A stretch of DNA of 64,000 nt from Geoalkalibacter halelectricus (GTDB lineage Bacteria; Desulfobacterota; Desulfuromonadia; Desulfuromonadales; Geoalkalibacteraceae): NCBI RefSeq assembly GCF_025263685.1, contig NZ_CP092109.1, positions 3,473,001 through 3,537,000 of the forward strand, given 5' to 3'. Within the stretch, counting starts at the first letter, position 1; the number at the start of each line of letters is the position of its first letter. Under the pieces are notes generated by a model that worked only from the letters and a program-made list of their open reading frames with translations, was not told the origin of the DNA and did not search any database. Of this stretch, positions 14,677 through 25,877 are shown piece by piece. Made by a program: the position numbers and the translations under genes.

Positions 14677-14849
14677 ACAAACAGCTCCAGGCGCTGGGAT
14701 CGCCCCATTCATAGCCCATCACACCGCCGGCGCCAAGGGAAAATCACCGCCGCCACGGCGCGCGCCTTGTGTCCTGCCGCCGGTGTGTTAATTTTTTTAG
14801 AGCAATGACAGCGCCTTGCCGCCTCAGGCGCTCTGCACGGAGGCTTTCC

Positions 14850-15995
14850 TTGCCGGACTCAACGCACCCGCGCCTCGATCCCGCGCAAATTTCCTGGCAC
14901 ACCGAAGCGGACGGCGCCCTGCGCATCCGTTTTGCCGGGCCTTGGGACGGCAACCGGCCCCTGCCGGATCTTGGTGCCCTGCTGAGCGTCCTCGACGCGG
15001 GTCCGCGCGAGGTGGTGCTGTGCGCCGACGCCCTCGGCCCCTGGGACAGCCGCTTTCTGGCCTTCGTCCTGCGCCTGCTTGAGGCCTGCCGGCAGCGCCG
15101 CATTCCCTGCCGCCGCGAAGGCCTTCCGGAGGGCGCGCAGCGCCTGCTGGTGCTGGCCGAAGCCGTTCCCGAGCAGGGCGCCGGCAGCCACGTGGAACCA
15201 CCCTCGCTGCTGCACCGCTTCGGCCTCGGCGCCCTGGAGTGGCGCCGCAAGAGCGTTGAAAATCTGGCCTTTTTCGGGGAGGCGTCGTTCAGCTTCCTGC
15301 GCCTGTTCAGCGGCCGCGCGCGCTTCCGCCGCGCGGATCTGCTGCTCTATCTGCACGAAGCCGGCGCCCAGGCGCTGCCCATCGTCACCCTCATCAGCCT
15401 GCTAGTCGGCCTGATCCTGGCGTTTGTCGGCGCGGTGCAATTGCGCATGTTCGGCGCCGAGATCTACATCGCCGATGCGGTGGGTCTGGGCATGGCGCGG
15501 GAGATGGGCGCCATGATGACCGGCATCATCATGGCCGGGCGCACCGGCGCGGCTTACGCCGCGCAGCTCGGCACCATGCAGGTCAACGAGGAGATCGACG
15601 CGCTACGCACCTTCGGCGTGGCGCCCATGGATTTTCTAGTGCTGCCGCGCATGCTGGCGCTGATGCTGATGCTGCCGTTGCTGACCATCTACGCCATCCT
15701 CATGGGCATTCTCGGCGGCGCGGTGGTGGGCATCGGCCTGTTCGACATTCCCGCGACCCAGTATTATCAGCAGACCATCAACGGCGTGCCGCTGATCCAC
15801 TTCATCGCCGGGCTGATCAAGGCGTGCGCCTACGGGCTGATCGTGGCGACCGCCGGATGCCTGCGCGGCATGCACAGCGGACGCAGCGCCGCGGCGGTCG
15901 GCGAGGCCACCACCTCGGCGGTGGTCACGGCGATCGTCTGGATCATTCTCGCCAACGCCCTGCTCACGGTGATCTATCATGTCCTCGGCATTTGA
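14850..15995 (+). CDS. mlaE: MlaE-type lipid ABC permease with N-terminal STAS-like domain
   Basis: This is the inner-membrane permease of a phospholipid transport (Mla/MCE) system. Residues 1 to about 110 look like a STAS-type domain (EVVLCADALGPWDSRFL). The rest is the permease: ALPIVTLISLLVGLILAF, MAREMGAMMTGIIMAGRTGAAYAAQLGTM and VNEEIDALRTFGVAPMDFLVLPR. I start at a TTG because GGAGG lies exactly 6 nt upstream; the earlier ATG and codons have no ribosome site and encode an arginine-rich stretch. Length is then 381 aa. The 3' end overlaps mlaF by 17 bp. Confidence 0.9.
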   Translation: MPDSTHPRLDPAQISWHTEADGALRIRFAGPWDGNRPLPDLGALLSVLDAGPREVVLCADALGPWDSRFLAFVLRLLEACRQRRIPCRREGLPEGAQRLLVLAEAVPEQGAGSHVEPPSLLHRFGLGALEWRRKSVENLAFFGEASFSFLRLFSGRARFRRADLLLYLHEAGAQALPIVTLISLLVGLILAFVGAVQLRMFGAEIYIADAVGLGMAREMGAMMTGIIMAGRTGAAYAAQLGTMQVNEEIDALRTFGVAPMDFLVLPRMLALMLMLPLLTIYAILMGILGGAVVGIGLFDIPATQYYQQTINGVPLIHFIAGLIKACAYGLIVATAGCLRGMHSGRSAAAVGEATTSAVVTAIVWIILANALLTVIYHVLGI

Positions 15996-16776
15996 CGCCC
16001 GCGCGCCGGAGAGCGCTGCTGCCGAGCCCCGACCCGCCATCCGGGTGCGGGGTTTGACCCTGGCGTACGGTGAGCGGGTCATCCAGCGCGATCTTAATTT
16101 CGATGTTTCTCCGGGCGCCATTTTCATCATCATGGGCGGATCGGGCTGCGGCAAGAGCACTCTGCTGCGCCATCTGGTCGGGCTGCAAAGGCCGGCGGCC
16201 GGAGAGGTCTTCTTTCGCGACCTCAATTTCTGGGAGGCTCCGGAGGAACAACGTAAGCGTTTTTTGCGCCACTGCGGTATCCTTTACCAAAGCGGCGCCC
16301 TGTGGAGTTCGCTGACCCTGGCGGAAAACGTCGAGCTGCCCCTGCGCGAATACACCCGCCTGAGTCGTGGTGAAATCCGCGACCTGGCGCAATTCAAACT
16401 GGCCCTGGTGGGCCTGGCGGGCTTCGGCACTCATTATCCGGCGGAGATCAGCGGTGGCATGCGCAAGCGCGCCGGTCTGGCCCGGGCCCTGGCGCTGGAT
16501 CCCGAATTTCTGTTTTTCGACGAGCCCTCCGCCGGTCTCGACCCGCTGAGCGCCCGGCGCCTCGATGATCTGATCCTGGAGCTGCGCGCGAGCCTCGGGG
16601 CCACGGTGGTGGTCGTTACTCACGAACTGGCGAGCATCTTCGCCATCGGCACCGACTCGGTGTTCCTGGATGCCGAATCACGCACGCAAATCGCCCGCGG
16701 CCATCCCGCCGAGTTGCGCGACGCGAGCCCAGACCCGCGCGTGCGCCGTTTTCTGACCCGCGGCGCGGAGGATTAA
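15979..16776 (+). CDS. mlaF: MlaF-type ABC transporter ATPase
   Basis: The 265-residue ATPase energises lipid movement by the MlaE permease. It shows Walker A GGSGCGKST near residue 53, the Q-loop region ILYQSGALWSSLT typical of MlaF, the signature ISGGMRKR, Walker B FLFFDEPSAGLDP and the switch His in VVTHELASIF. It overlaps mlaE and is 3 bp from mlaD, so the genes are co-translated. Confidence 0.95.
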   Translation: MSSAFDARAPESAAAEPRPAIRVRGLTLAYGERVIQRDLNFDVSPGAIFIIMGGSGCGKSTLLRHLVGLQRPAAGEVFFRDLNFWEAPEEQRKRFLRHCGILYQSGALWSSLTLAENVELPLREYTRLSRGEIRDLAQFKLALVGLAGFGTHYPAEISGGMRKRAGLARALALDPEFLFFDEPSAGLDPLSARRLDDLILELRASLGATVVVVTHELASIFAIGTDSVFLDAESRTQIARGHPAELRDASPDPRVRRFLTRGAED

Positions 16777-16779
16777 GTC

Positions 16780-17781
16780 ATGAGCAAGAAAGTCAACCCC
16801 GCCCTGGTCGGCGGCTTCGTCCTGGGGGCGCTGGCCCTGGCCCTGGCCGCCGTCATCATCTTCGGCGGCGGGCACCTGTTTCGCGCCACCGAGCGCTATG
16901 TTCTCTACTTCGACGGCTCGGTCAAGGGCCTCAACGTCGGCGCCCCGGTGGTGTTTCGCGGCGTGCAGGTGGGCAGCGTGGTGCAGATCCGCATCGAGTT
17001 CGACGAGCGCGATCTCAACTTTCGCATCCCGGTGGTGATCGAGGTGCTGCCCGATCGTTTCACCCAGGTGTGCTGCGAGGAAAACGGCGTAAGCCGCGAG
17101 TTGCAGGTCGGCACCCAGGAATTCATCGATCTGATGGTCGAGGCCGGATTGCGCGCCCAATTGCAGATGCAGAGCCTGGTCACCGGCCAGTTGCTGGTCA
17201 ACATCGACCTGCTGCCCGAGCGGTCGCCGCGCCTGGTCGATGTGCCCACGCCCTACCCGCAGTTGCCGACCATCCCCTCGCACCTCGAGCAATTCACCCG
17301 CACCCTCGAAGAGCTGCCCCTGGATGAAATCGTCCACAAATTCATCGGCGTGCTCGATGGCCTCGAACAGTTGGTGCGCTCCCCCGAACTCGGCGAGGCC
17401 CTGGGCGATTTGCGCACCACCCTGGCGGACGTGCAAAGCCTGGTGCGCGGCATGGAGCAGCGGCTCGCCGGCACCGATGAACAGCTCCGTGCCACCCTGG
17501 AAAGCGCGCGCCTGATGCTGACCAACCTCGATGGACAACTCACGCCCCTGGCGGAGATTCTGGTCGAAGCGGCTCAGGCGGGGCAGGGCGCCTTGGAAGA
17601 AACCCGCCAGGCCATGAGCGCGCTCAAGGAAACGGTGGGGCAGGATTCAAGCCTGAGCATGCAACTGGAATCCACCCTGGCCGAGGTGGCCGCCGCGGCG
17701 CGCTCCCTGCGCATCCTGAGCGATTTTCTCGAGCGCCATCCCGACGCGCTGCTGCGCGGCAAAGGAGGACCTTCGCGATGA
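16780..17781 (+). CDS. mlaD: MlaD-type MCE domain protein
   Basis: The 333-residue protein has one N-terminal transmembrane anchor (residues about 8-30) and one MCE domain (VLYFDGSVKGLNVGAPVVFRG). A long helical C-terminal part follows (residues about 170-320) with coiled-coil character (EQLVRSPELGEALGDL, LAGTDEQLRATLESARLM). MCE proteins form hexameric rings or tubes that carry lipids across the periplasm, so this is the substrate-binding part of the system. GGAGG precedes the ATG. Its stop overlaps the next start by 4 bp. Confidence 0.93.
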   Translation: MSKKVNPALVGGFVLGALALALAAVIIFGGGHLFRATERYVLYFDGSVKGLNVGAPVVFRGVQVGSVVQIRIEFDERDLNFRIPVVIEVLPDRFTQVCCEENGVSRELQVGTQEFIDLMVEAGLRAQLQMQSLVTGQLLVNIDLLPERSPRLVDVPTPYPQLPTIPSHLEQFTRTLEELPLDEIVHKFIGVLDGLEQLVRSPELGEALGDLRTTLADVQSLVRGMEQRLAGTDEQLRATLESARLMLTNLDGQLTPLAEILVEAAQAGQGALEETRQAMSALKETVGQDSSLSMQLESTLAEVAAAARSLRILSDFLERHPDALLRGKGGPSR

Positions 17782-18416
17782 CCACCCCGATTCCCATTCC
17801 CGGCCGCCGCGCGCTGCTGCTGCTCGGCGCGCTCGTTCTCGGCGGCTGCCTGGTTATGGGCGAGGGGCGGGTGGAGCAGACCCGCTACTTCACCCTCGCC
17901 CCGACCCAGGACGAAAACCTTGTGCCCCTGGCCGAACACCAACCGGATTGGCTGCCGGGTGTCGGTCCGGTGCGCCTGGCCGCCTACCTGGATCGCCCCC
18001 AACTGCTCACCCGCCGCGACGCTTTTGAACTGGAGGTGATCGAGGCGGCCCTCTGGGCCGAGCCCTTGCAGGAAAACCTCGCCCGGACCCTGGCCGCCAA
18101 CCTTGCCGCGCTCACCGCCAGCCCGCGAGTGCCGGTGTTTCCCTGGCGCGCCACGGCGCAACCCACCCACCAGATCAGCGTCACGATCCTGCGCTTCGAC
18201 AGCGGCCCCGAACCGCTGGCACGTCTGCAAGCCCAGTGGGCCATTCAAACGCAAAAAGGCGGCCCACCTCTGGTGAGCCGCCAATCGCATCTCAGCGCGC
18301 CGATGCTCGGCGAAGACGCCGCCGCGGCCGTCGCCGCCTTGAGCGCAACCCTTGGCGCCCTGAGCCTGGAGATCGCCGAGGCCCTGGGGGCCCTGGCCGC
18401 CGAAAACAAAAGGTAA
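17778..18416 (+). CDS. PqiC-like auxiliary lipoprotein of the MCE transporter
   Basis: The 212-residue product has a signal peptide with lipobox LGGC and the pattern RYFTLAPTQ ... RVPVFPWRATAQPTHQISVTILRFDS, which matches the PqiC/DUF330 (ABC-type auxiliary) family. Members sit on the outer membrane or periplasmic face and dock MCE assemblies. Translational coupling with mlaD (ATGA overlap) supports this. The operon has no MlaB, MlaC or MlaA here; the STAS-like part of the permease may stand in for MlaB. Confidence 0.8.
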   Translation: MTTPIPIPGRRALLLLGALVLGGCLVMGEGRVEQTRYFTLAPTQDENLVPLAEHQPDWLPGVGPVRLAAYLDRPQLLTRRDAFELEVIEAALWAEPLQENLARTLAANLAALTASPRVPVFPWRATAQPTHQISVTILRFDSGPEPLARLQAQWAIQTQKGGPPLVSRQSHLSAPMLGEDAAAAVAALSATLGALSLEIAEALGALAAENKR

Positions 18417-18467: not shown

Positions 18468-19082
18468 CTAAAGTTGCTCGAAAAACGAGGGCCGCAGAAA
18501 CTCAAAACTCTCCACGAAACGATCGAAATCCTGCTCATCGCGCAGGTCGTAGTCGGCATCGGCCGCGCGCCACTGGGTGAAATAAAAGGCGACCACCCGC
18601 TCGCCGCGGCGCGCGAAAACCACCTTGGCGTGGACCTTGTGACCCAGCACCGGCTCGATGCCTTCGGTCACGGCGATCAGGCCCTCCTTGCCGAACACCT
18701 CGGTCGGTTGCAGTTTGGGCTCGGCGAAGTTGACCCGGCTGGCCCAGAGAAAGCGTCTGAAGAATTCCTCCTGGCGGGTTTCAAAGTCCAGGGAGTAGCC
18801 GAAGGGCTCCTCGGCGTAGGCCAGGGTGCTCTGACAGGGATAGCCCTCGTCGCACAGCATCATATAGCCCACCGAATAGTCGTCCTCGTCCAGATCGATG
18901 AGCTGCCAGGGCCGCGGCGGCGGCACGAAGCGGTATTCGTCCTGCCAGACCAGGGCCTCGCCGTCGCGTACCAGCGTGGCGCGCCCGTCATCGGCGGCAG
19001 GCGGCTGAATCAGGGCGCAGCCGCCCAAAAAGAGGAGGACGGCGGCAAGCGCCGCGGACAATCGCACAGACAAGCCGTTCAT
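18468..19082 (-). CDS. Putative lipoprotein coupled to the selenocysteine peroxiredoxin
   Basis: The 204-residue product starts with a signal peptide and lipobox (FLGGC, about residue 22). The mature part is acidic and aromatic (PWQLIDLDEDDYSVGYMMLC, HAKVVFARRGERVVAFYFTQW) with no recognised domain. Its ATG overlaps the stop of the peroxiredoxin gene by 4 bp (ATGA), so translation is probably coupled. A periplasmic or envelope role alongside the peroxiredoxin is inference. Confidence 0.75.
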   Translation of the reverse strand: MNGLSVRLSAALAAVLLFLGGCALIQPPAADDGRATLVRDGEALVWQDEYRFVPPPRPWQLIDLDEDDYSVGYMMLCDEGYPCQSTLAYAEEPFGYSLDFETRQEEFFRRFLWASRVNFAEPKLQPTEVFGKEGLIAVTEGIEPVLGHKVHAKVVFARRGERVVAFYFTQWRAADADYDLRDEQDFDRFVESFEFLRPSFFEQL

Positions 19083-19660
19083 CGCCGTCCCTCCTCTTCA
19101 TGCAGTTGCTTGAGCACGGTGAGAATCTCACGATAGTTGGGATTTCCGGGCTGCATGTAGCGAATCACTCCCCACTTGTCGATGATCACCGTGGTGCGGT
19201 TGAACATGGGATAGCCGGCCTGCAGGGCGCCGAACCAAATGCCTAGGTGCCCGATGGGGTTGGAAAAAATCGGAAACTCCAGGCCCAAATCCTTGGCCCA
19301 GTGCTCCAGGGTCGCGACCTGATCTCGACTGACACCCGCCACGCGGGCGTTGAAGCGGTCATAGAGATAGAGATTTCTCTGATGACCCTCCATTTCCCCC
19401 GTTCAGACAGGGGTGAAGGCCGCCGGGACGAAAGTCATCACCAGATGATGGCGCCCGTAGTAGTCCTTGTCGTAGTCCATCAGCCGACGCTCGGACGTCA
19501 CCACCTGAAAGATGGGCGCCCGGTCGCCGACCCGCTTGGCCATGTCGGCGCGCTGCTGGGCCGCGCCGGCGGGCGGGGCGAGCAACAGACAGGCGAAAAG
19601 AGCCGTCAGGAGCGCCCAGGCCCATGCCGCCTCCCGTGGCCTTTGGATGATGTTCTCCAT
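19079..19660 (-). CDS. Secreted peroxiredoxin-like selenoprotein (Sec86 encoded by UGA)
   Basis: Read through one in-frame TGA, this is a single 193-codon gene. The N-terminus is a signal peptide (AWALLTALFACLLL...GAA), so the protein acts outside the cytoplasm. The redoxin fold follows: VGDRAPIFQV, MTFVPAAFTPV, then the UGA exactly where peroxiredoxins carry the peroxidatic Cys (PxxxTPxC), then TGEMEGHQRN. Downstream, VAGVSRDQ, FPIFSNPIGHLG and TTVIIDKWGVIRY match AhpC/TSA proteins. A stem-loop 15 nt after the UGA fits a bacterial SECIS. GGGAGG precedes the ATG. Without recoding it would be wrongly read as two short genes, 19403-19660 and 19079-19393. Expected role: reducing peroxides in the periplasm. 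Confidence 0.88.
19357..19402 (-). promoter_or_regulatory. Candidate bacterial SECIS hairpin
   Basis: In mRNA sense, 15 nt after the UGA, GGTCAT pairs with ATGACC. An upper stem AGAGA/TCTCT is separated by one bulged base, with an 8-nt loop. Position and size fit bacterial SECIS elements recognised by SelB. Confidence 0.65.
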
Positions 19661-19700
19661 GGAAACCTCCCTTGATGTGGATAACTGATCCCCTTTGTGG

Positions 19701-19744
19701 AAAATCATTATCCGATATATTATCGCAAATGGCGCGGACCGCAA
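19701..19744 (-). promoter_or_regulatory. Promoter of the peroxiredoxin gene with Fur-family-like hexamers
   Basis: On the minus strand TTGCGG, 16 bp, TAATAT forms a promoter about 60 nt before the ATG. The -10 is covered by two GATAAT hexamers 6 bp apart followed by GATTTT, the hexamer pattern of Fur-type sites. Control by Fur or PerR is a guess from this pattern. Confidence 0.4.
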
Positions 19745-19759
19745 CCATCCCCTCGCGCT

Positions 19760-20791
19760 TTAGCCGCCGGCGCGCAGCAGGAACAGCACCTCCTGGGGGC
19801 TGACCTGGCCCTGCCAATTGCCTGTCAGGCGGCCCCAAACCGATACGCCGACAAAAAGCCCCACCAGCAGGACCGCGAACACCGCAGCGGGCAGGCGCAG
19901 GCGCGCGGCCAAAGTCATTTCCACCGCGCCGGGGACCGGGCAGCCGTGCACGCAGCGATAGCAGGCATAGCACTCCGCCGAGCGCACCCGGCGCTTGTGC
20001 ATCACCGGCAGCCAGGCCGGACAGCGGGAGCTGCAGGCGCCGCAGCGAATGCACAGGCGTTCGTCGCGGGTCATCTTGCCCAGGGACAACAACGACACCA
20101 GGCCGAGCAGCGCTCCATAGGGGCACAGATAGCGGCACCAGGCCATCTGCACGAAAAAACAGCCAAGGGCGAGCAGGCCAATGACGGCCAGGGTCGTCGC
20201 GGAGGGCTGCTGGAAAAATTCCAGCATGCGGATATCGGCGACCTTATGATAGGGCGAGGCGAGAAAGGCGCGCAATCCCGGCAGAGGCATGACCCAGAGG
20301 ATCTGATAGGCGAAAAAACCCAGCAGCAAATACTTCAGGCCGCGCAGCACCAGATCGATCCAGAAGGGTGGGGCGAAGGTGCGTCCGCACAGCTTCTCCC
20401 CCAAGCGCCACAACCCCTCGGAGAGGGGAAACACCGGGCAGATCCAGGCGCAGAAACCGCGCTTGAACAACAGGGCGGTGAGCAGGGCGGCGAACAGAAT
20501 CAGCGCCGCGGCGGGGTGCACGGGAAACAGGGTGCCGGTTTCGAACCAGTGGCGCAGGCCCATCAGGCCGCTGATGGGCAAAAAGCCGTCGACCGCCGCC
20601 GGACGCGCGAAGTCGGGCAGCTCGCCCGCCTTGAGCAGCCCTGTCCACCGCGCAAAGCGCACCGCGAGCCAGAGGTAGAACAGCAGAAATGCGGCCTGCA
20701 CGAGATAGCGCGGCAGCATGGGCGGTATGCGGCGCGTGGTCTGGACTTTGTTCACTCCTTGCGGTTTGCTGATTTGCTCGTCCGATTTCAC
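19760..20791 (-). CDS. NapH/CcoG-like polyferredoxin membrane protein
   Basis: The 343-residue protein has about five to six membrane helices. Two Cys motifs sit at membrane ends (FCAWICPVFPL and WCRYLCPYGAL), followed by two 4Fe-4S ferredoxin clusters (CIRCGACSSRCP and CYACYRCVHGCP). This is the NapH/CcoG/RdxA layout of membrane electron carriers feeding periplasmic reductases or copper/heme maturation. Start is a GTG with AGGGAG upstream. It lies just upstream of the selenocysteine peroxiredoxin, but a promoter lies between them, so a shared function is only possible, not shown. Confidence 0.85.
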   Translation of the reverse strand: MKSDEQISKPQGVNKVQTTRRIPPMLPRYLVQAAFLLFYLWLAVRFARWTGLLKAGELPDFARPAAVDGFLPISGLMGLRHWFETGTLFPVHPAAALILFAALLTALLFKRGFCAWICPVFPLSEGLWRLGEKLCGRTFAPPFWIDLVLRGLKYLLLGFFAYQILWVMPLPGLRAFLASPYHKVADIRMLEFFQQPSATTLAVIGLLALGCFFVQMAWCRYLCPYGALLGLVSLLSLGKMTRDERLCIRCGACSSRCPAWLPVMHKRRVRSAECYACYRCVHGCPVPGAVEMTLAARLRLPAAVFAVLLVGLFVGVSVWGRLTGNWQGQVSPQEVLFLLRAGG

Positions 20792-22861: not shown

Positions 22862-23731
22862 TCAACGCAGCCAGGCCTGAACCCTGGCGGGGTTTTCCGC
22901 GACCCAGCGCTTGGCGGTCTCGTAAGGGGTGGCGCCTTCCTCACGGTTCCACACCATGACCTGCTGCATGTCGTCGGTCGTCCAGGAAAAGTTCTGCAGG
23001 AAGCGGAAGACTTCCGGCATGTCCTGCTCAAGTCCCTGGCGCACGATGGTGTGAATCTGCTCGTCGCCGCCGTAAACATTCTGCGGATCTTCGAGGTATT
23101 TAAGATCCCATTGGGCGAATTTCCAGTGGGGCGTCCAACCAGTCACCACCACCCACTGCTCACGATTGATGGCATCGGCCAGAGCGGCGGTCATGGTCGC
23201 GCCGCTGCCTTCCATCAGGCGCAGATTGTCGAGGCCGTAGGCCTCCATCACCTCTTCGGTCTTCGACATCAGCCCGGCACCGGGATCAATGCCGATGATA
23301 CGCCCGTCAAAGCGCTCGGCGTTCTCGTTGAGCTCATCAATGGAGGAAATCTCCACATAGGTCGGAACCACCAGGCCGATGCGGGTGCCGTCGAGGTTGG
23401 GGCCGAGATCGACGACCTGCTCCCGGAGGCGCTCCAGGTAATGCCCATGAGTGGTCGGCAGCCAGGCGGCAACCATGGCGTCGGCATCACCGCCGGCAAT
23501 GCCCTGCCACATGGCGGCGGCGCTCACCGGGGTCAACCGCACTTCGTAGCCCAGCTCCTCCTGCAGCACCGCGGCCACCACGTTGGTGCTGGCCACCTCC
23601 GATGACCATTCGACATAAATCAGGTCAACCCGCTGGGGTGCCTGTGCCTCTTCCTGCCTCTGGCAACCGACCACCAGCAGGGCGAACATCACCAACAGCG
23701 CCACAGCACATGTCTTCAGAGATCCTTTCAT
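22862..23731 (-). CDS. proX: Glycine betaine/proline-type ABC substrate-binding lipoprotein
   Basis: The 289-residue protein has a lipobox signal (VVGC) and the OpuAC fold: YVEWSSEVASTNVVAAVLQE, MWQGIAGGDADAMVAAWLP, IIGIDPGAGLM and VVTGWTPHWKFAQWDL. The Trp-rich segments supply the aromatic box for quaternary amines. It is the last gene of the proV-proW-proX cluster, 39 bp after proW. Ligand is probably glycine betaine or a related osmolyte; choline or ectoine cannot be excluded. Confidence 0.92.
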   Translation of the reverse strand: MKGSLKTCAVALLVMFALLVVGCQRQEEAQAPQRVDLIYVEWSSEVASTNVVAAVLQEELGYEVRLTPVSAAAMWQGIAGGDADAMVAAWLPTTHGHYLERLREQVVDLGPNLDGTRIGLVVPTYVEISSIDELNENAERFDGRIIGIDPGAGLMSKTEEVMEAYGLDNLRLMEGSGATMTAALADAINREQWVVVTGWTPHWKFAQWDLKYLEDPQNVYGGDEQIHTIVRQGLEQDMPEVFRFLQNFSWTTDDMQQVMVWNREEGATPYETAKRWVAENPARVQAWLR

Positions 23732-23770
23732 CTGTTGCTCCTTTCCAGGGTGTTTTGTGCGTGCTTAAAA

Positions 23771-24610
23771 TCACACTTTCTTGCGACCACCAACCTTTTG
23801 CGTTATGCGGTCCAGAGCCATGGCCAGGATGACCACCCCCAGGCCAGCTTCAAAGCCGTTGCCCGGCTCAAAACGCTGAATAGCGCGCCACACATCGCTG
23901 CCCAGTCCGCGGGCGCCGATCATGGCGGCGATCACCACCATGGACAGCGAGAGCATGATGGTCTGGTTGATCCCCGCCATGATGGTCGGCTTGGCCAGGG
24001 GGATCTGCAGCTTCACCAGCTTCTGCATGCGATTGGCGCCAAAGGCATCCGCCGCCTCCACCAGATCACGCGGCACCTGCTGAATGCCCAGGCAGGTCAG
24101 GCGAATGGCGGGCGGCATGGCGAAAATAACGGTGGAGAAAATCGCCGACACCGGACCCAGACCGAAAAAGGGAATGGCCGGGATCAGATAGACAAAGGCC
24201 GGCATGGTCTGCATGAAATCGAGCACCGGCATGGTCGCGCGGTGCATGGGCGCAAACAGGGCGGCGAGAATGCCCAGGGGCAAGCCGATGGTGACGGCAA
24301 TGGCCGTGGCGATCAGCACCAGCGCCAGGGTCGAGATCATGGACGCCCACAGGGCCATATTCCAGATCAGCGCGAAGCCGACCAGGGTCAATATCCCGGC
24401 GCGACGTCCGGCCAGCCACCAGGCCAGTGCAGTGAACGCCAGGATCAGCACCCAGGGCGGAAAAAACATCAGTCCGGCCACCAGCAAGTCAATGCCTGTC
24501 TCCATGGTGCGTGAGATGGCCCGGGTGATGAACGCGAAATTGAGGGTCAGGAAATCGATGATGGTTTCCAGAAAATCACCGATGGGAATGCGCGGCAGCG
24601 GCATAGTCAT
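23771..24610 (-). CDS. proW: Glycine betaine ABC permease
   Basis: This 279-residue inner-membrane permease has six to seven helices and the EAA loop (LVEAADAFGANRMQKLVKLQIPLAKPTI). The stretch DFMQTMPAFVYLIPAIPFFGLG is characteristic of ProW/OpuAB. Its ATG overlaps the proV stop by 4 bp. It couples to ProV for ATP-driven uptake. Confidence 0.95.
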   Translation of the reverse strand: MTMPLPRIPIGDFLETIIDFLTLNFAFITRAISRTMETGIDLLVAGLMFFPPWVLILAFTALAWWLAGRRAGILTLVGFALIWNMALWASMISTLALVLIATAIAVTIGLPLGILAALFAPMHRATMPVLDFMQTMPAFVYLIPAIPFFGLGPVSAIFSTVIFAMPPAIRLTCLGIQQVPRDLVEAADAFGANRMQKLVKLQIPLAKPTIMAGINQTIMLSLSMVVIAAMIGARGLGSDVWRAIQRFEPGNGFEAGLGVVILAMALDRITQKVGGRKKV

Positions 24611-25806
24611 GACTCGTTGCTCCTTTCCGCCATGGCGGCGAGCAGCGCACCGCGAATGATGATGCCCTCCAGGCGCCCGTCCTCATCCACCACGGCCACC
24701 GGGAAATTTTCAATGGCGAAGATTTCGCTGAGCGGCGCATCGGGCAGCACCTGTGCCACGTCGCGCTGAACGATATCGGCGAGCTCCTTGCCGCCTTCAC
24801 CGGCCAGCCGCGATGCATCGTCGGCCGTCACCCGTCCCACCAGGCGCCGCTCGCGGTCGACAACCAGCAGGCCGGAGATGCCGACTTCCTTCATTTTGCG
24901 CAGGGCCGTCTTAGGGCCGTCCTTGCCCAGGGTTACGGTGGAGGCCTTGTGCATGACCGAGCGGGCGGTGAGCACCTTGGCCAGGTTGACGTCTTCGACG
25001 AACTTTTCCACGTAATCGGTGGCCGGATTGGTGAGGATGTCCTCAGGGGTGCCGATCTGCACGATGCGCCCGTCTTTCATGATGACGATGCGATCACCCA
25101 GCTTGAGGGCCTCATCGAGATCATGGGTGATGAACAAAATGGTTTTCTTCATGCGGCTCTGCAGGGAGAGCAGCTCATCCTGCATCTCGCGCCGAATCAG
25201 GGGGTCCAAGGCGCTGAAGGCTTCGTCCATGAGCAGAATATCCGGATCGACCGCCAGGGCGCGGGCCAGGCCGACGCGCTGCTGCATGCCGCCGGAGAGC
25301 TCATCGGGCAGTGATTCCTCCCAGCCGGCCAGGCCCACCAGCTTGAGCGCTTCACGCGCCTTGTCCTCACGTACAGCCGGTTCGATATTCTGGATTTCCA
25401 GGCCGAACTCGGTATTTTGCAGCACGCTACGGTGCGGCAGCAGGGCAAAGCGCTGAAACACCATGCCGAATTTTTTCATGCGCAAACGACGCAATTGCTC
25501 GTCGTCCAGGGTGGTGATATCGACGCCGTCGATGAGAACCCGCCCTGCGGTGGGCTCGATGAGACGGTTGATGCAGCGCAGCAGAGTGGATTTGCCGCTG
25601 CCGGAGAGCCCCATGACCACCAGCAGCTCGCCCTCGGCCACATCGAAAGAGGCATCGTCGACTCCCACGGTGAGGCGTGCCTTCTCAAGGATGGCTTCTT
25701 TGCCGAGCCCCTCGGCGAGCATCTTGACGCCGCGCTTGGGATCGCGCCCGAAAATTTTGAAAACCTTATCGACGGTGATTTTCGCGGGATTGCCGCTCGC
25801 TTCCAT
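24607..25806 (-). CDS. proV: Glycine betaine ABC ATPase with tandem CBS domains
   Basis: The roughly 399-residue ATPase has Walker A MGLSGSGKST, signature LSGGMQQRVG, Walker B ILLMDEAFSALDP and the switch His in FITHDLDEAL. Two C-terminal CBS domains (about residues 270-390; VGISGLLVVDRERRLVG, NFPVAVVDEDGRLEG) are the ionic-strength sensors of this family. No good ribosome site is seen; MEASGNPAKI is chosen by family alignment, and an ATG 14 codons earlier or a TTG 18 codons earlier remain possible. A hairpin separates it from the upstream porin gene. Confidence 0.93.
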   Translation of the reverse strand: MEASGNPAKITVDKVFKIFGRDPKRGVKMLAEGLGKEAILEKARLTVGVDDASFDVAEGELLVVMGLSGSGKSTLLRCINRLIEPTAGRVLIDGVDITTLDDEQLRRLRMKKFGMVFQRFALLPHRSVLQNTEFGLEIQNIEPAVREDKAREALKLVGLAGWEESLPDELSGGMQQRVGLARALAVDPDILLMDEAFSALDPLIRREMQDELLSLQSRMKKTILFITHDLDEALKLGDRIVIMKDGRIVQIGTPEDILTNPATDYVEKFVEDVNLAKVLTARSVMHKASTVTLGKDGPKTALRKMKEVGISGLLVVDRERRLVGRVTADDASRLAGEGGKELADIVQRDVAQVLPDAPLSEIFAIENFPVAVVDEDGRLEGIIIRGALLAAMAERSNES

Positions 25807-25877
25807 AGGCGGGGTCTGCTTTCTGTCGGAGCCGTCGTGCCGTGGCATACAAGTGAACAAGATAGATGGGAACAGAG

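Follow-up and report, generated by a model that had tools for sequence, protein, structure and literature searches.

A selenocysteine (Sec)-containing peroxiredoxin, PrxU, was reportedly described from Eubacterium acidaminophilum by Sohling et al. in 2001, and Sec-peroxiredoxins are usually regarded as soluble enzymes. The TxxU-type Sec-peroxiredoxins are established in the accessible parts of the literature (PMC13188914, PMC9312934, PMC1794560, PMC1914089), in agreement with what an initial sequence-only reading of the DNA studied here had said of bacterial selenoprotein peroxiredoxins. 'Peroxiredoxin' selenoproteins of Geobacter metallireducens, Syntrophus aciditrophicus, Syntrophobacter fumaroxidans, and Anaeromyxobacter dehalogenans appear in the available portions of three of these sources (PMC13188914, PMC1794560, PMC1914089). 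As far as the same portions describe it, the PrxU/TxxU family combines an AhpC/TSA domain, the motif PxxxTxxU, a peroxidatic Sec, and UGA recoding (PMC13188914, PMC1794560, PMC1914089), all of which are shared by the protein reported here. Unlike that family, our protein is probably exported and is linked to a PsbP-like lipoprotein, and it scores only 30.4 bits against the NCBIfam PrxU equivalog NF040737, whose cut-off is 270. Its subfamily could include the peroxiredoxins that were listed in 2006 for Geobacter metallireducens or Syntrophus. The Prx-like UxxC thiol:disulfide oxidoreductase selenoproteins belong to the same Pfam family, PF00578 (available part of PMC13188914), but carry Sec elsewhere, in a UxxC motif (available part of PMC1914089), whereas our protein is of the TxxU type and has no partner Cys. 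In solved fold and in sequence, the nearest proteins are Mycobacterium tuberculosis AhpE and the archaeal Bcp1 and Bcp4; among the highest-ranking Bcp and AhpE matches, identity was 24–31% and the TM score by target 0.84–0.89. The PDB title of AhpE calls it a 1-Cys peroxiredoxin, and our protein likewise lacks a resolving Cys; it differs from AhpE and Bcp in having Sec for Cys, a probable signal peptide, and a lipoprotein partner.

The window, that is, the whole stretch of DNA analysed, comprises 64,000 nucleotides of Geoalkalibacter halelectricus (NZ_CP092109.1, 3,473,001–3,537,000). Translation with table 11 gives two short open reading frames on the minus strand (19403-19744:- and 19079-19393:-). 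With the intervening TGA taken as Sec, they become a single 193-residue protein with U86 within AAFTPV-U-TGE. The gene for this AhpC/TSA protein occupies 19079–19660 on the minus strand, with the start codon ATG at 19660–19658 and 193 codons followed by a TGA stop (19079–19081). The in-frame UGA (19403–19405, minus strand) falls at the peroxidatic residue of AhpC/TSA peroxiredoxins (PxxxTxxU; here PAAFTPVU), and the Pfam AhpC-TSA match covers residues 44–169 (E 1.1e-20), spanning the TGA on both sides. The sequence-only reading had seen one frame broken only by a TGA, with a single AhpC/TSA redoxin on its two sides; both points were borne out, and the strand, which it had not given, is minus. 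The plus-strand reading of 19079–19660 was ruled out, as it contains a stop and no recognisable protein. The Shine-Dalgarno sequence of the full-length gene, GGGAGG, lies at 19666–19671 (minus strand), and similar sites were seen by eye ahead of the chosen starts of most homologues. The earlier statement that a ribosome site exists solely for the full gene holds for GGGAGG but was slightly too strong as to exclusivity, because a second G-run directly precedes the internal ATG at 19393.

To assess conservation of the TGA, genome contigs were scanned with peptide patterns from which the U position had been left out. Of 42 matching stretches, 26 were confirmed as homologous loci, and all 26 have TGA at the position of residue 86. 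Since the scan was blind to that codon, a chance TGA is excluded, and since the same TGA recurs in all 26 independent loci, a sequencing error is very unlikely. Among 136 genomes of the order, 22 had a peroxiredoxin match at E≤1e-20, and 21 of these have the TGA form, including G126, where the gene is split across contigs; G003 has the Cys form only. Among 395 genomes drawn from the phylum, two of which are also in the order set, 19 matched at E≤1e-30 with 20 copies, each with the TGA; an extra TAA in one copy is the gene's own stop. A Cys codon (TGT or TGC) stands exactly at this position in four paralogues from three genomes (G003, G123, and G124), and G123 and G124 carry Sec and Cys forms together. 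The proposal that the TGA occupies the catalytic position of AAFTPVxTGE, and the suggested comparison of homologues at residue 86, thus found their answer in Sec at 26 of 26 loci and Cys in four paralogues.

The source genome was assembled into one contig of 4.126 Mb, with completeness rated at 100%. The selenium genes that the sequence-only reading had recommended looking for (selA, selB, selD, and tRNA-Sec) were all present above their cut-offs. The tRNA-Sec scored 75.6 bits (gathering 47), a test also passed by 5 of 14 control genomes; selB, selA, and selD scored 390.8, 609.5, and 370.1 bits, respectively, with two, one, and two of the 14 controls above the cut-off. The genes selD, selB, and selA lie side by side at 692433–696734 of the genome, and selD (C1:692433-693356, minus strand; L018) has its own in-frame TGA in the motif SAG-U-AAKIGPE, as judged by eye. 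In the order, selA was found in 19 of the 21 TGA-bearing genomes and not in G045 (81% complete) or G106 (78% complete); it occurs in 114 of the 136 genomes and is thus weak as a discriminating test.

A SECIS-type hairpin (GGUCAU-C-AGAGA / loop / UCUCU-AUGACC; 19357–19387, minus strand) starts 15 nt after the UGA. In a 53-nt fold (19402–19350) its stem extends outwards to 19392/19351, with a free energy of -19.2 kcal/mol and a z score of -3.1; 3 of 200 shuffled controls folded as well. The GGTCAT/ATGACC hairpin that had been pointed out from the letters alone is therefore real as a predicted fold. We then aligned this region from the window and loci L021–L046, L048–L067, and L079–L098, leaving out L047, which is the window's own copy. 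Rows were picked by a motif containing the TGA, hence the alignment is no test of the TGA itself; 66 of 67 passed, giving 43 distinct sequences, and L098, which failed, was read separately. One scan pattern, EMEGHQRN, falls in the hairpin region, which biases the loci towards that peptide. Covariation was computed on 39 distinct rows, with the T of the UGA numbered as position 0. In the hairpin G18..R29 / Y38..C48, 87.6% of cells were paired. Compensatory changes were found in 13 cells, compared with 5.2 on average in shuffles, and none of 500 shuffles reached as many, a measure that relatedness can inflate according to the tool's warning; the number of pairs with two-sided changes was two, which is not above shuffles (451 of 500 reach 2). 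Pair 29/38, which joins two third codon positions, is G-C in 27 of 43 sequences, A-U in 10 of 43, G-U in three, and unpaired in three (Fisher p 8e-6 for the switch, ignoring relatedness). The majority-codon fraction was 0.79 for 14 conserved codons of residues 87–103 versus 0.56 for 43 elsewhere (one-sided p 6.5e-4).

The details of the structure are less uniform. In the lower stem, 15 of the 43 sequences cannot form pair 19-47 and 20 cannot form pair 20-46, and an RNAalifold stem at columns 13–19/39–45, with 96.7% of cells paired and no covariation, is kept as an alternative. As a rule, at least one of the first two apical-loop bases of a bacterial SECIS element is a G; the predicted 8-nt loop of the window (AAUCUCUA) departs from this. 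The hairpin was not kept in single folds of the four Cys paralogues, one of which folds at -13.0 kcal/mol into a different shape. On the strand of the gene, Rfam detected no RNA family at the hairpin; a match to SECIS_1 at 19642–19701, on the opposite strand and at 20.3 against a gathering score of 35, was treated as chance. Taken together, the compensatory changes and the synonymous constraint support the earlier suggestion of a bacterial SECIS downstream of the UGA, with its fine structure uncertain.

In the peroxiredoxin itself, P79, T83, residue 86, and R155 are invariant among 26 aligned sequences. Arg155 aligns with an Arg of Bcp and AhpE, and we take it to be the catalytic Arg of peroxiredoxins; the window protein thus has the AhpC/TSA domain, the PxxxTxxU motif, and the Arg by which TxxU Sec-peroxiredoxins are recognised. 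The AlphaFold model, with Cys substituted for Sec, had a pLDDT of 90.4, and its best Foldseek matches were archaeal Bcp4/Bcp1 and M. tuberculosis AhpE, with which the sequences agree. No Cys was found past the N-terminal signal region in 27 sequences (one of which, L046, ends 21 residues after the Sec), so the protein is of the one-selenocysteine type. Residues 1–33 (19562–19660, minus strand) form a probable signal peptide, with a cleavage site placed by eye between LAPPAGA and AQQ. The N-termini of the 26 listed homologues likewise looked hydrophobic on visual inspection, and four of these proteins (L021, L025, L026, and L046) have a lipobox-like Cys there. Judging from these N-termini, the peroxiredoxin is probably exported.

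For phylogeny, L046 was excluded from the tree and from both alignments (A1 and A2). The source genome has five other AhpC-TSA genes, of which the motif filter took three into the tree and dropped L075 and L077; the outgroup rows were very long. The Cys paralogues cluster with Sec sequences L093–L097 (support 99/99) on a long branch, and a change from Sec to Cys is possible, though we are unsure of it. At two loci (L036 and L037), the Sec-peroxiredoxin has a further AhpC/TSA gene, this one with Cys (FVPAAWTPVC), no more than about 4 kb away.

The gene downstream (18468–19082, minus strand) encodes a 204-residue lipoprotein with the lipobox LGGC (Cys22) and a predicted PsbP-like fold. Its start overlaps the peroxiredoxin stop in an ATGA (19079–19082, minus strand), and its own Shine-Dalgarno sequence, AGGAGGG, lies inside the end of the peroxiredoxin gene (19089–19095, minus strand). 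The stop was visible in 42 distinct Sec copies, and 36 of them show the ATGA overlap. Of the 26 loci, 25 have the lipoprotein gene, 24 of these with the ATGA overlap; the exception, L046, ends inside the peroxiredoxin. A lipoprotein profile and the peroxiredoxin matched exactly the same 22 of the order's 136 genomes; all 25 lipoprotein copies adjoin a peroxiredoxin of the Sec or Cys form, as read from coordinates and taking the divided G126 gene as one copy. In the phylum draw, the lipoprotein occurred in 20 of 395 genomes, namely the 19 peroxiredoxin genomes and G284, and 20 of 22 matches were adjacent to the peroxiredoxin. The match in G284 is partial and begins at base 171 of its contig, with no peroxiredoxin detected, and G369 has one extra lipoprotein fragment. 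The coupled lipoprotein gene that had been noticed at the outset is therefore confirmed, and its conservation goes far beyond what could be known from the window.

The lipobox column holds Cys in all 26 aligned lipoproteins, although the box of L033 is weak, and C22 is conserved at ≥90%. It is the only nearly invariant Cys of the family, and the lipoprotein can therefore not serve generally as a thiol donor. The Cys pair of CDEGYPC was considered as a source of resolving thiols and rejected as a general mechanism, because two Cys occur there in only 9 of 26 members (the window, L021–L026, L028, and L035). Neither Pfam nor NCBIfam gave a match to the window lipoprotein at E≤1. Across the 26 members, Pfam searches at E≤1 returned six isolated weak families with one member each, none of them a PsbP family, and the lipoprotein profile had no match at E≤1 among PDB sequences. 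The AlphaFold model (pLDDT 86.5) had its best Foldseek matches in plant PsbP (1v2b; E 2.9e-6) and cyanobacterial PsbP (2xb3; E 5.3e-6), with 10–17% identity to the PsbP rows and TM scores of 0.43–0.50 by query and 0.54–0.63 by target; LpqN, DcrB, and SciW/EagT6 ranked lower than PsbP. These models suggest that the lipoprotein has a PsbP-like fold.

A second subfamily of the module has FANAFG-x-x-U/C and lacks the peroxiredoxin-motif Pro and Thr, and is still found beside the lipoprotein. Sec occurs in one copy (L098 in G502, whose TGA stands in the FANAFG-x-x-U context, as in the Cys copies) and Cys in four (L068–L070 and L072); the accompanying lipoproteins are L142 and L120–L123, respectively.

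Wider gene neighbourhoods were compared as well. A NapH/MauN-like membrane ferredoxin gene (19760–20791, minus strand) lies 99 bases upstream of the peroxiredoxin start, with a TIGR02163 score of 73.6 bits, below the cut-off of 213. As a candidate third member of a conserved module it was rejected, because it had no BLAST match (E≤1e-8) in the 26 homologous loci, 25 of which hold at least 1.7 kb upstream (L041 holds 71 bases). A macro-domain-like gene, recognised by eye, lies downstream of the lipoprotein in 11 loci among L030–L045, all 11 within a single tree clade. Other recurrent neighbours occur in 4–9 loci, mainly in one related locus group, with flank lengths that vary between loci. Ten neighbour families are present in at least four loci, and by eye they include no cytochrome; no conserved donor gene was found near the peroxiredoxin homologues. 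In the window, an MCE/Mla-type lipid ABC transport set (by eye; 14769–18416, plus strand), whose last gene encodes an ABC_trans_aux lipoprotein (Pfam E 1.1e-36), is convergent with the module, and glycine-betaine-type ABC transporter genes for an ATPase, a permease, and a binding protein (by eye) occupy 22862–25860 on the minus strand.

We conclude, with a probability of about 0.93, that the locus encodes a recoded Sec-peroxiredoxin with a conserved lipoprotein partner. The two-gene module may serve peroxide reduction outside the cytoplasm, as we infer from sequence. SelB and tRNA-Sec would recode the UGA at codon 86, aided by the hairpin just downstream, and the first gene would yield an exported one-selenocysteine peroxiredoxin. 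The selenol of Sec86, held by Pro79, Thr83, and Arg155, would attack peroxide and become a selenenic acid, which would be reduced by an outside donor in a 1-Cys, AhpE-like cycle. An outside donor would be needed because the mature protein has no resolving Cys or Sec. The PsbP-fold lipoprotein would most likely tether or dock the peroxidase at the membrane and/or present it to its reductant, a docking role to which we assign roughly even odds.

Several other explanations were weighed against this one. Under the standard code the locus is two open reading frames, which could be the halves of a broken peroxiredoxin gene divided by a true stop or a sequencing error. This is refuted in practice by conservation: the TGA recurs in the 26 loci and in every phylum match, the protein is conserved on both sides of it, synonymous sites 3' of it appear constrained, and the genome has the complete Sec machinery. 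The lipoprotein might instead be a bystander that operon inertia has kept in place and that works separately from a real Sec-peroxiredoxin. Its own Shine-Dalgarno sequence would allow this, as would the one lipoprotein-bearing phylum genome of 20 without a detected peroxiredoxin (G284) and the extra fragment in G369, but the identical spread through 22 of 136 genomes and the adjacency of all 25 copies, diverged Cys paralogues included, make it improbable. We hold it equally improbable that the protein is not a peroxidase and uses the same Sec chemistry as a redox sensor or as a reductase of another oxidant, such as peroxynitrite or sulfur species. The FANAFG-x-x-U/C lineage, beside the same lipoprotein without Pro and Thr, speaks for that idea, and peroxiredoxins seldom have a near-obligate partner that lacks a conserved thiol pair; however, the main subfamily, the window protein included, keeps P79, T83, Sec86, and R155, and the modelled fold resembles AhpE and Bcp.

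As to the donor, electrons might come from periplasmic c-type cytochromes or from the upstream NapH-like ferredoxin (19760–20791) rather than from thiols. The peroxiredoxin has no resolving Cys, the NapH-like gene is just upstream, and the available part of one source reports evidence that, in Geobacter sulfurreducens, the diheme peroxidase MacA forms a complex with a periplasmic triheme cytochrome (PMC10582990). Against this stand the lack of a NapH-like match in the 26 homologous loci and of a cytochrome among the ten recurrent neighbour families (at least four loci), and we regard such a donor as unlikely, though a little less so than the two readings just called improbable. A bolder proposal is that the one-Sec peroxiredoxin works only with the PsbP-fold lipoprotein as an anchor that hands over non-thiol electrons, for example from periplasmic cytochromes; it is doubtful, though we doubt it somewhat less than any of these rivals. 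If it were true, selenium shortage, with ribosomes stopping at the UGA, would lower production of the lipoprotein too, because its start overlaps the peroxiredoxin stop, and the lipoprotein's own Shine-Dalgarno sequence would weaken the effect.

Returning to the Sec-peroxiredoxin with its lipoprotein partner, our literature search, which mostly did not extend to subscription journals, found no description of a peroxiredoxin and PsbP-like lipoprotein module, and the words 'periplasm' and 'lipoprotein' occur 0 times in the available part of PMC13188914. Within the literature searched, a probably exported Sec-peroxiredoxin subfamily and its near-obligate lipoprotein are new. The window peroxiredoxin falls below every NCBIfam cut-off, and routine annotation may therefore cut such genes into two false ones. 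Judged by their N-termini, members of the Desulfuromonadales, Geobacteraceae, Syntrophaceae, and other groups appear to export a Sec-peroxiredoxin. One specific lipoprotein has been retained with it across the exchange of Sec and Cys, and a lipoprotein family without a Pfam model thereby gains its first functional context. The module raises the testable question of how a one-selenocysteine peroxidase would be reduced outside the cytoplasm.
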